A stretch of DNA of 64,000 bases, taken from NCBI RefSeq assembly GCF_030209355.1, contig NZ_JARVSF010000009.1, positions 1 to 64,000 of the forward strand, given 5' to 3'. The stretch comes from Pseudarthrobacter sp. fls2-241-R2A-127. Its GTDB lineage: Bacteria > Actinomycetota > Actinomycetes > Actinomycetales > Micrococcaceae. The notes beneath the pieces were generated by a model that worked only from the letters and a program-made list of their open reading frames with translations, was not told the DNA's origin and ran no database searches. The position numbers were made by a program, and so were the translations under genes. Below, one piece after another: positions 41,534 to 45,017 of this stretch (the first letter of the stretch is position 1; each line of letters opens with the position of its first letter).

Positions 41534-42418
41534 CTAGAGGAGGCTGCGCAGCACGTGGGCCGCGCCGTCGTCGAACACCGAATGGGTGACCTCATCCGCC
41601 GCCGCAATCACTTCCTGCGGAGCTTGCCCCATGGCCACGCCGCGGCCGGCCCAGGTAAGCATTTCAATATCGTTGCGGCCATCGCCAACGGCGACGGTGC
41701 GGTGCTGCTCGATGCCGAGCCGGAGGCGGAGGCTCTCCAGGGCGCTGGCCTTGGTCACCCCTGCTGCTGCGATATCCAGCCATGCGGTCCAGCCCACCGA
41801 GTACGTCACCCCGGCCAGTCCCACGTGCTTGATGGCCTCATTGAATTCCTCGGGCGTGTTTTCAGTGCTGAACACCACCACGCGCACCGCGGTGGCCTCC
41901 AGCATGGTGTGGAAGTCGACGCCTACGGCCTCGACGCCGAAACTGGCGTCCTGGAACCGTTCCGTGGAGAGGAAGTTTCCGTCCGCGTCCTCCAGGGCGT
42001 ACTTGGCAGAGGGGAGCCGATCCCGGAGGGCCCTCAGGGCCGGACCGGGGTCGAAGGTGGCCTTGTGGATGATCTCGTAGCCGTTGGCCAGTTCGGGGTG
42101 GAGCCGGAGGGTCACGCCGCCGTTGCAGCAGACTGCGTAGCCGCGCTCTATACCGATTTTTTCGATGACGGGAAGGGTGGCGTTCAAGGAGCGGCCGGTG
42201 GCGATCATTACCTCGTGCCCGGCTGCCACCACCGCCTGCGCCGCGTCCCGGACGCCCGGCGTCATGTGGCCGTCGTGGTCCACCAGGGTGCCGTCCACGT
42301 CCAGTGCGACCATCAGCTTCTGGCCGATTTCCGAAAAGCGGTAGGTGTTGGTGTTGTCTTGGTTGTTCTCTCGCCGGTCATCGTTGCCGGCGACTGAGGT
42401 TTCAGTCAGCGTTGTCAT
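41534..42418 (-). CDS. HAD-superfamily phosphatase, Cof-like
   Basis: A 294-residue HAD phosphatase of the Cof/YidA type (cap type C2). The nucleophile motif VALDVDGTLVDHDG has Asp40 and Asp42. Motif II is MIATGRS, and motifs III and IV are in VAVGDGRNDIEML near residue 240. The first 32 residues are a polar Asn/Asp/Thr-rich tail that may be disordered. The ATG at 42418 has no strong ribosome-binding site. The longer upstream open frame has no protein character. It probably dephosphorylates a sugar phosphate or flavin-type cofactor. Confidence 0.9.
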   Translation of the reverse strand: MTTLTETSVAGNDDRRENNQDNTNTYRFSEIGQKLMVALDVDGTLVDHDGHMTPGVRDAAQAVVAAGHEVMIATGRSLNATLPVIEKIGIERGYAVCCNGGVTLRLHPELANGYEIIHKATFDPGPALRALRDRLPSAKYALEDADGNFLSTERFQDASFGVEAVGVDFHTMLEATAVRVVVFSTENTPEEFNEAIKHVGLAGVTYSVGWTAWLDIAAAGVTKASALESLRLRLGIEQHRTVAVGDGRNDIEMLTWAGRGVAMGQAPQEVIAAADEVTHSVFDDGAAHVLRSLL

Positions 42419-42529: not shown

Positions 42530-42580
42530 ACGGACGGTGCACCCCCGGACGCGCTGGTGCATCGTCCACTCGGGGGTGCA
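42530..42580. repeat. Upstream copy of the GTGCACCCCCG palindromic motif
   Basis: ACGGACGGTGCACCCCCG (42530-42547) differs by one base from the arm of the hairpin at 43650-43691. CGGGGGTGCA (42571-42580) is the reverse complement of its inner part, leaving a 23-base loop. It looks like a diverged copy of the same element, about 65 bases before the ATG of the putative nuclease. Confidence 0.65.
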
Positions 42581-42646
42581 GGCGCGGGTTCCGGTTGTCC
42601 ACATGCCCACGCCGGGTCCTTCAGCACCGCTGACGCTCCGGCCACC

Positions 42647-43651
42647 ATGAATGGCATGCAGCTGATTTCCGCACTGGACCTCCGCCACAGCACCGGGGAT
42701 ATCCGATCACTCAGCAGGCGCTACGCGCAGGGTGAACTCGTCCGCGTTCGCAGGGGCGTATACGCCGTCAGGGATGAGTGGGTATCGCTGGCCCCTTGGC
42801 AGCGATACCGCCATACGGTGCTTGCCGTGGACCTGGAACTGCCGCAATCCACGTTCTGCCTGAACACTGCTGCCGTCCTGTGGGACCTGGACCTGCTTGC
42901 TGTGCCCGGATATGTCCACTTGTCGGGAGCGTCCAGGGGCCACACCGGCCGCAGGAAGCCAACCACCTCTGCCGCTCCTGACAAATCCGGGCGGACCGGG
43001 ATCACCCATCTCACCGCATACGGCGTCCACAGGCATGGCGGGGATGCAGCGTCGGTCCGGCGCGGAGGCCTGCTGGTCACTACGCTGCCCGATACCGTCA
43101 TAAACGTCATCGCGAGGGAAAGCTTCGCGGCAGGGGTCGTGCTGGCGGACCACGCAATCAGCCCCCGCCGCGCCTCCGGGCCTCCGGTCGGCAAGGACGA
43201 GCTGGTCCTGGCGGCTTCCCTGCTCCCGTCGGCAGCCCGCCGAAACTGGGTTGCCCGGGTGATTGACTTCGCCTCGCCCCATTCGGAGTCAGCCGGAGAA
43301 TCCCTCAGCCGCGCACAGATGCATCTTCTCGGCGTCCCGGCTCCCATGCTCCAGGCGAAGTTCCTGCAGGCGGGTACGTTGCTGGCCCGGACTGATTTCT
43401 TCTGGCCGAAATACCGGCTGATCGGCGAGTTCGACGGCGACGCCAAGTACCTCAATGACGAATACTTGGGCGCACGGACGGCACGGCAAACAGTGCTCGC
43501 AGAGAAGAAGCGCGAGGACAAACTCCGGGCGGCGGGTTTCCGGGTGGTCCGGTGGGACTGGGCAACAGCATCCGACCCCGCCCGCTTTGCGGCATGCCTT
43601 CGGCAGGCAGGCCTGCCCGTCAAGCGGAACAGAGTATCCAGCACCCCGTAA
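42647..43651 (+). CDS. AbiEi-like HTH protein with DUF559/Vsr-like nuclease domain
   Basis: A 334-residue two-domain protein. The N-terminal part (to about residue 95) resembles AbiEi-type winged-helix domains: LSRRYAQGELVRVRRGVYAV at 22-41, then a region around CLNTAAVLWDLDLL. The C-terminal part (about 215-310) has the layout of a PD-(D/E)xK endonuclease of the DUF559/Vsr group: Glu218 in SAGESLSR, Asp250 in ARTDFFWP, and IGEFDGDAKY with Glu261 and Asp263, followed by DKLRAAGFRVVRWDW. Substrate and biological role are unknown. No ribosome-binding site is seen before ATG 42647. It stands alone and is flanked by related palindromes, its stop codon lying inside one. Confidence 0.75.
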   Translation: MNGMQLISALDLRHSTGDIRSLSRRYAQGELVRVRRGVYAVRDEWVSLAPWQRYRHTVLAVDLELPQSTFCLNTAAVLWDLDLLAVPGYVHLSGASRGHTGRRKPTTSAAPDKSGRTGITHLTAYGVHRHGGDAASVRRGGLLVTTLPDTVINVIARESFAAGVVLADHAISPRRASGPPVGKDELVLAASLLPSAARRNWVARVIDFASPHSESAGESLSRAQMHLLGVPAPMLQAKFLQAGTLLARTDFFWPKYRLIGEFDGDAKYLNDEYLGARTARQTVLAEKKREDKLRAAGFRVVRWDWATASDPARFAACLRQAGLPVKRNRVSSTP

Positions 43652-43691
43652 CGGACAGTGCACCCCCGTGTTCGGGGGTGCACTGTCCGTT
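43650..43691. repeat. 19-bp perfect hairpin at the 3' end of the putative nuclease gene
   Basis: The arm at 43650-43668 (containing ACGGACAGTGCACCCCCG) is the exact reverse complement of 43673-43691, with a TGTT loop. Its first two bases are part of the TAA stop codon of the upstream gene. It can terminate transcription from both sides, since serS converges on it. It shares its core with 42530-42547 upstream of the gene. Confidence 0.85.
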
Positions 43692-43736: not shown

Positions 43737-45017
43737 CTAGAGGACCGGGAGCACCTCGAGGCCGCCCAGGTACTTCTGCAGCGCCTTGGGGACGTTGACC
43801 GAGCCGTCAGCGTTCTGGTGGTGCTCCAGCAGCGCCACGATCCAGCGGGTGGTGGCCAGCGTGCCGTTCAGGGTGGCCACGGCCCGGGTTCCCTTGGCCA
43901 CGCCGTCAGCGTTGACCGCGCGCTCACGGATATTGAGGCGGCGCGCCTGGAACGTGGTGCAGTTTGAGGTGGAGGTCAGCTCGCGGTAGGCGCCCTGGGT
44001 GGGAACCCATGCTTCGCAGTCGTACTTGCGGGCGGCGGACATTCCCAGGTCACCGGCTGCGGTGTCGATGACGCGGTACGGCAGCTCGCACTTGGCCAGC
44101 ATCTCTTCTTCCCAGGCAAGCAGGCGCTGGTGCTCGGCGGCGGCCTCTTCCACGGTGGTGTAGATGAACATCTCCACCTTGTTGAACTGGTGCACGCGGA
44201 TGATGCCGCGGGTGTCCTTGCCGTGGGAGCCGGCTTCGCGCCGGTAGCAGGAGCTCTGGCCGGCGTAGCGGATGGGCCCGGCTGAGAAGTCGAGGATTTC
44301 GTCCGCGTGGTAGCCGGCCAGGGCCACCTCTGAGGTGCCCACGAGGTAAAGGTCGTCCTCGGCCAGGCGGTAGATCTCGGCGTCGTGCTTCACATCGAAG
44401 CCGGTGCCCTGCATGGTTTCGGGGCGCACCAGCGTGGGGGTGATCATCGGGACGAAGCCTGCTTCGATGGCCTGCTCCATGGCCATCTGCAGCAGTGCCA
44501 TTTCCAGCCGGGCACCCACGCCGCGGAGGAAGTAGAAACGGGCGCCGGAGACCTTGGCACCGCGCTCCATGTCGATCGCGCCGATCAGCTCGCCGATCTC
44601 CAAGTGGTCCTTGGGCTCAAAGTCGGGGAACTCACGCGGGGTTCCGACGGTCTTGACCACCACGTAGTCGTCCTCGCCGCCCTCCGGAACGCCATTCTCC
44701 ACCAGGTTGGGGACGGTGCGCAGCAGCTCTTCCTGCTTGGTTTGGGCGGCGTCGGCCTCGGCGGAGGCTGCCTTGACGGAGTTGGCCAGTTCCTTGACCT
44801 CTGCCAGCAGCGCCTGCTTTTCCTCGCCCTTGGCCTGCGCCACCTTCTTGCCGAAGGCGTTCTGCTCGGCGCGGAGGTTTTCGAAGCGGATCAGGGCTGC
44901 GCGGCGGGCGGCATCCGCGGAGATGATCGCGTCCACCACTGATTCGTCCGCGCCGCGGGCGCGCTGGCTGGCACGGAACTTGTCCGGGTTTTCGCTGAGG
45001 TCTTTTACGTCGATCAC
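43737..45017 (-). CDS. serS: Seryl-tRNA synthetase
   Basis: Charges tRNA-Ser. The 426 residues start at GTG 45017 ([14 protein letters not shown]). The N-terminal coiled coil (about 30-105, rich in Lys/Glu/Ala) binds the long variable arm of tRNA-Ser. The class II catalytic core has motif 2 in [30 protein letters not shown] and motif 3 in [19 protein letters not shown]. The frame continues far upstream, but serS proteins begin at this position. Divergent from the lipid kinase gene. Confidence 0.97.

Follow-up and report, generated by a model that had tools for sequence, protein, structure and literature searches.

Palindromes that bracket the genes of a predicted actinobacterial nuclease family, each subfamily usually with its own motif

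Why should a solitary gene for a predicted nuclease carry copies of one palindrome on both of its sides? The question arises at a locus of Pseudarthrobacter sp. fls2-241-R2A-127, within a stretch of 64,000 nucleotides that was analysed as a whole and is called the window below. A preliminary description of this DNA had noted the palindromes and guessed that they form, together with the gene, a small mobile or self-maintaining module. The gene stands free between its neighbours and is not housed in an intron or intein. The features of the locus are as follows.

41537..42418, − strand: gene of a HAD-family phosphatase, which borders the insertion-like locus on the left (context)
42530..42582, + strand: upstream palindrome copy, imperfect and nested (ACGGACGGTGCACCCCCG ... 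CTCGGGGGTGCA), from motif match and folding
42595..42604, + strand: TTGTCCACAT box, its start 52 nt from the ATG; it resembles a DnaA box and is predicted to act as a competence promoter element
42647..43651, + strand: nuclease gene, ATG at 42647 to TAA at 43649-43651, 334 aa
42650..43276, + strand: AbiEi-antitoxin-like part, residues 2-210, from the predicted fold and its alignment to 6y8q
43283..43618, + strand: predicted nuclease domain resembling Vsr and I-Bth0305I, residues 213-324, in which E218, D250, E261, D263, E286 and K287 are invariant
43650..43691, no strand assigned: downstream palindrome copy, perfect over 19 bp with a 4-nt loop; it overlaps the stop codon and lies between two convergent genes
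43737..45017, − strand: serS, seryl-tRNA synthetase gene, right border (context; start approximate)

The gene, its protein and its palindromes

Exact matches to ACGGAC[AG]GTGCACCCCCG lie at 42530(+), 43651(+) and 43673(-), which confirms that the motif occurs on both sides of the gene. Only the downstream copy is a perfect palindrome, because the upstream one is imperfect and nested. The 19-bp hairpin that the preliminary description had extended into the stop codon is found as claimed at 43650-43691, its stem starting within the TAA. Folded as RNA, it reaches -55 kcal/mol and a z score of -9.7, with equal folding in none of 200 shuffles. The upstream palindrome gives z -3.5 on the plus strand (0/200 shuffles) and z -2.5 on the minus strand (3/200).

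A wider spread of this motif, across window or genome, was considered and rejected: it is confined to the nuclease gene, and elsewhere in the 4.7-Mb assembly just two sites come within two mismatches, each with both. Single matches away from the gene in the 121 genomes of the genus look like chance, being about as frequent as those of a reversed control.

The protein is predicted to consist of an AbiEi-like winged-helix part followed by a nuclease domain that resembles Vsr and homing endonucleases, a call that for the second domain rests on predicted structure. The AF2 prediction, built with 53 family members, has a pLDDT of 93 and a pTM of 0.89. A Foldseek search with it returned the AbiEi antitoxin 6y8q as top match (E 6e-4), then Rv2827c, and also the catalytic domain of the homing endonuclease I-Bth0305I (E 0.05, target TM 0.72). 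By VIA-align, residues 2-210 match AbiEi (6y8q) with Z 9.4, and residues 213-324 match I-Bth0305I (3r3p) with Z 9.1 and an rmsd of 2.4 over 94 residues, as well as Vsr (1cw0) with Z 8.1. Z scores of 8-9 are just slightly over the background quoted for this tool. Residues 50-197 of the model show, in addition, a weak likeness to nucleotidyltransferases (VIA-align, Z 7-7.8), whose fold is that of AbiEii-type toxins.

Comparisons at the sequence level support parts of the original domain assignment. The AbiEi-like domain is matched by PADLOC AbiEi models (E 6e-8), while Pfam AbiEi_4 is weak on the window protein (E 0.0012, below its cut-off) and matches 34 of the 53 members. The second domain had been called DUF559/Vsr-like; the Vsr likeness stands, in the predicted structure, but membership of DUF559 (PF04480) had to be rejected, as neither the window protein nor any of the 53 members matches it at E<=0.01. 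The proposed catalytic residues Glu218, Asp250, Glu261 and Asp263 are invariant throughout these members, together with E286, K287, R302 and W303. No Y1/HUH transposase model matches any of the 53, for which the Pfam scan gave AbiEi families only; a module comparable to REP-associated transposases in logic, as had been suggested, would indeed not be homologous to them.

The HAD gene and serS are the neighbours in all 30 A-type loci, which are the best matches in the genus (L006-L035 all sit between these two genes). With these neighbours, no AbiEii-type toxin gene adjoins the nuclease gene; no methylase, such as the Dcm-type enzyme that accompanies the T:G mismatch endonuclease Vsr, lies between HAD and serS, and a check of the neighbours found no modification partner beside the gene.

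Each gene usually has one private motif on both sides

Relatives of the protein are present in 121/121 genomes of the genus, and a family profile applied at class level finds matches in 129 of 197 genomes and 70 of 90 genera. This describes a large, uncharacterised actinobacterial family of predicted DNA-cutting enzymes. No description of it was found in the literature, a search limited to open-access sources that leaves most subscription journals uncovered. Two apparent outliers, L221 (labelled as an Acidobacteria MAG) and L232 (Sporosarcina), are typical Arthrobacter-like members and probably stem from contaminated or misassigned assemblies.

Do the palindromes change along with the protein? 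By inspection, the flank hairpins of L006-L035 have a sequence that is specific to the clade and common to both sides of one locus, for example GGACAGTGCACC, GGACTTTGCACC, GGACAATTCACC and GGTCAATTCCCC. The close orthologues in G011, G017, G056, G071, G104 and G113 carry the window motif beside the gene, exactly or with one mismatch. In other subfamilies, where 60 further loci were picked from the ranked list of genus relatives, many also had a palindrome of their own on both sides: GGTTTCGGACAGCCGC in the B-type, a 58-nt GACGCGCAAATGCCCTGGCGC... in the C-type and a 55-nt CTAAGCTTGTTCGCGGATCCG... in the E-type. The arms of the C-type covary: two-sided changes number 40 against 21.7 in shuffles, a count that none of 500 shuffles reached, and 80.5% of arm cells are paired vs 74.2%. 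Many relatives, L030, L031 and L034 among them, have a separate palindrome, GGTTAATACTCACAGGTTATCCCCGGTGTGAGTATTAACC with variants, on the 5' side of the HAD gene.

The match between the two flanks of a gene was measured in the best 80 of 585 relatives, the named loci, 77 of which have enough flanking sequence; they come from Arthrobacter, Pseudarthrobacter, Paenarthrobacter, Sinomonas, Cellulomonas, Cryobacterium, Naasia, Nesterenkonia, Frigoribacterium, Agromyces and other genera. Upstream and downstream flanks match at a score of at least 18 in 49/77 and at least 16 in 52/77, compared with 0/1607 and 3/1607, respectively, for flank pairs of equal geometry placed at random in these loci. Flanks paired across loci reach 18 in 1.1% of 5,580 cases if the proteins are less than 55% identical, and in 20% of 272 cases if they are closer. 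At class level, 24 of 28 loci reach this score against 1/678 cross pairs and 4/3504 window pairs within the same locus, and their flanks often match inverted, over some 80 nt. The test of the genus loci needed wide flanks, since downstream palindromes may overlap the C-terminal codons. Here own pairs score at least 14 in 55/89, off-diagonal pairs in 13.1%, many of the latter being close relatives; the own partner ranked first in 16 and among the top five in 33 of the 89.

Each gene thus usually has one private motif on both sides, and this motif differs between subfamilies. The rule has exceptions, so that palindromes cannot be said always to flank the family: 49/77 named and 24/28 class-level loci follow it, 28/77 named loci show no flank match, and neither does one group of genus loci (L080, L085, L090, L094, L097, L101, L103, L104, L108). 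Two observations would have refuted a link between gene and palindrome altogether, namely the motif at many unrelated gene ends, which is not seen in this genome, and the gene conserved at its site without palindromes, where the close orthologues keep a cognate hairpin.

Dispersed copies and a variable site

If gene and palindrome belong together, what of palindromes that occur alone? The E-type palindrome was followed with a covariance model, R1, whose matches at E<=0.01 are counted in rows on both strands. It has matches in 84 of the 121 genus genomes and none in 37, with a maximum of 38 rows in G052 and G055, which therefore amounts to about 19 palindromes. Eight or more rows are present in every one of the 22 genomes whose E gene is at least 59% identical, and in 14 of the 99 others (not corrected for ancestry). 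Fifteen of 30 fetched E-type copies have no family gene within 1.5 kb; these and a copy at serS in G016 make 16 lone copies, all of which adjoin the 3' end of a gene, 12-77 nt from the nearest, as judged from an ORF/GC3 gene call. A second example is the end motif of family f23, AATGATCAYGTTYRG, which with one mismatch allowed has 24-132 copies in nine of 12 genomes and 2-3 in the other three, against 0-1 per genome and strand for the reversed pattern. None of the 30 fetched f23 loci (L350-L379) has a family gene; the copies resemble repeat units some 80 nt long, which begin with AATGATCACGTTCA. Some motifs, the E-type and that of f23, are thus dispersed without the gene; the A-type, in this genome, is not.

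Such copies also fit a passive role of the gene, which would then merely lie between two mobile repeats spread by another enzyme. Dispersed copies without the gene nearby speak for this, as do lone palindromes where no E gene is found at E<=1e-70, for example in G016. Yet across the class the motif goes with the protein subfamily, and E copy number with the presence of an E gene, which makes a mere passenger very improbable.

The same copies weigh on another explanation, an AbiEi-type autorepressor without any mobility, for which the upstream palindrome serves as operator and the downstream one, between the convergent genes, as a bidirectional terminator or a second operator. The AbiEi-like N-terminal part, the position of the upstream palindrome just 5' of the box, the -55 kcal/mol hairpin overlapping the stop codon and the lone E copies at gene 3' ends are all in its favour. 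A terminator need not carry the operator sequence, however, and yet the flanks share a motif and change together. Moreover, copies reach about 19 (E-type) or 132 (f23) per genome, the lone copies examined are at 3' ends and not at promoters, and the invariant nuclease centre is left unexplained. An operator plus a terminator accounts for the single locus, not for dispersed copies or the common end sequence, and we consider this explanation unlikely.

The site between serS and HAD offers a view of gene and palindrome at one position. The preliminary description had proposed a comparison with empty sites, and both gene-free gaps and lone palindromes were found there. Among 60 additional HAD-upstream regions of relatives, 17 have an E-type gene on the serS strand (five of them in two frames), one has a broken A-type gene and two have gene remnants, one of these among 33 short gaps. 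The further short gaps, 32 in number, are without a gene, and eight regions could not be placed, the serS end not being found. At least five of the 32 gene-free gaps hold, by eye, one recognisable palindrome (L134, L145, L146, L173 and L175). The one in L146 is the best R1 match, and the one in L134 joins the HAD-side and serS-side flanks that surround the gene of L026. In G109, next to a HAD gene 97% identical to that of the window, an E gene 35% identical to the window gene lies in the opposite orientation. The site therefore varies among relatives: it may contain a gene, of one subfamily or another and facing either way, or be empty, or be marked by a lone palindrome, with gain and loss not polarised. 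In G052, G055, G038 and G120 an E-type gene is about 16 kb away from HAD, which suggests insertion at the same hotspot.

Because the flanks co-vary with the protein, lone and dispersed copies exist, and alleles at one site are exchangeable, we favour, with moderate confidence, a reading in which the gene evolves together with its two palindromes as one module, like REP sequences and their RAYT enzymes in organisation and built around an unrelated nuclease. Binding, cleavage and mobility are inferred. The winged-helix part would recognise the cognate palindrome, either double-stranded or folded into a single-strand hairpin, and the Vsr/homing-endonuclease-like domain would nick or cut it. Repair of the cut might then place copies of palindromes, or of the entire unit, at new or empty sites, most likely during DNA uptake and recombination, and annealing of the two flanking copies could delete the gene and leave a lone palindrome behind. 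The initial guess of a mobile or self-maintaining module gains from the fact that the link holds in many subfamilies with their own motifs and that solo copies exist; its weak point is the palindrome of this very genome, the A-type, which is not dispersed. Also against a module count the 28/77 loci without a flank match, the 14 genomes that have at least eight rows without an E gene of 59% identity or more, and the position of lone copies at gene 3' ends, which is also that of terminators.

The promoter box and known systems

A further hint to the context of the gene is the box upstream of it. Of the genus loci, 77 of 90 have a TTNTCCACA box that starts at -64..-48, at -60 in 48 of them and at -61 in 21; of the named loci, 41 of 80 have it. 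Random windows contain it in 28/5400 and 5/4800 cases, respectively. The genome itself has 23 TTRTCCACAT sites and three of the reversed pattern. Checked distances from box to start are 59 nt for recA and 60 nt each for cpaB and the cpaE homologue; the DUF559/AbiEi relative L298 follows with 59, the AbiEi_1-like L304 with 60, an M23 peptidase with 60, leuB with 58 and two proteins of unknown family with 58 and 54 nt. An ssb paralogue has the box 99 nt before its ATG, and comEA has CTTTCCACAT at -60, with one mismatch in the first T. Pfam names RecA, SSB and RcpC/CpaB among the box-bearing genes, and NCBIfam identifies the CpaE homologue (TIGR03815, E 9e-98), CpaB just under its cut-off, and ComEA by TIGR00426 over and TIGR01259 under the cut-off.

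Competence genes are not the only ones with the box, since leuB, the M23 peptidase and the proteins without a family carry it and some sites are intragenic. Of 22 other sites examined, only nine are followed by a start codon at 54-60 nt, and several fall inside coding sequence. It also resembles the DnaA-box consensus, and one of the 23 sites adjoins dnaA (L309); a plain DnaA-box reading, or control by DnaA, is not excluded. In Micrococcus luteus, a CpaB-like gene is co-transcribed with a TadZ/CpaE gene and required for transformation, according to PMC8467076, and the competence regulon of this species is called currently unknown in a 2026 article (PMC12849477). Competence control of the nuclease gene is an inference, because it rests on promoter sharing without expression data.

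Would such control make the enzyme a guard, produced with the uptake machinery to cut incoming DNA or hairpins, with genomic cognate palindromes as recognition or self-marking sites? The predicted nuclease fold and the predicted box in common with comEA, cpaB, the cpaE homologue and recA agree with this. By itself, however, it accounts neither for the motif at both gene ends nor for a locus at which alleles alternate and lone palindromes occur, and no modification partner adjoins the gene; we think it improbable. A bolder extension of the module reading sees selfish modules across the class that spread by natural transformation, without a transposase of known kind: produced alongside the DNA-uptake apparatus, the enzyme would cut its own palindrome, in an incoming single-strand hairpin or a chromosomal lone copy, home into palindrome-marked sites and seed REP-like repeats. 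This is possible, and we put it forward only tentatively.

How does the module that we favour relate to known systems? As in REP/RAYT pairs, a nuclease gene is flanked by palindromes that for some types are dispersed elsewhere and that diverge with the protein. RAYTs are Y1 HUH enzymes. In contrast, the family protein is AbiEi-like plus Vsr-like, with no Y1 HUH match in 53 members, its palindromes span about 40-80 nt, and a competence-type promoter box is predicted. To our knowledge, every partner enzyme so far described for REP-type repeats is an HUH enzyme. With Vsr and the EDxHD homing endonuclease I-Bth0305I the family shares the predicted fold of the catalytic domain; unlike theirs, its gene is bracketed by palindromes and encodes an extra AbiEi-like part. 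Filled, empty and lone-palindrome sites recall homing, but there are no cutting data. Of the terminal inverted repeats expected of insertion sequences or MITEs, many class-level loci offer a possible counterpart in their long inverted flank matches; the window has only palindromes. The winged-helix part resembles that of AbiE type IV toxin-antitoxin systems, from which the family differs by the fused nuclease domain and the lack of an adjoining AbiEii-type toxin gene. DUF559 (PF04480)/MTES_1575 nucleases are presumably of the same Vsr-like kind. The relative L298 of this genome matches both PF04480 and AbiEi_4 and has its box at -59, whereas the 53 members do not match PF04480. The passages searched in a REP survey (PMC3733652) name neither Arthrobacter nor actinobacteria.

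If the module is real, it would represent a second, independent origin of the arrangement of REP-type repeat and partner enzyme, by way of a non-homologous nuclease, and would explain dispersed repeats in these actinobacterial genomes. The subfamily-specific pairs would offer a natural series of enzymes with matched targets, and the shared -60 box a handle on the actinobacterial competence regulon. In this genome, L299 (recA), L302 (cpaB), L304 (AbiEi_1-like), L306 (cpaE homologue), L298 (DUF559/AbiEi) and L317 (comEA) form a candidate competence regulon of Arthrobacter-like bacteria.
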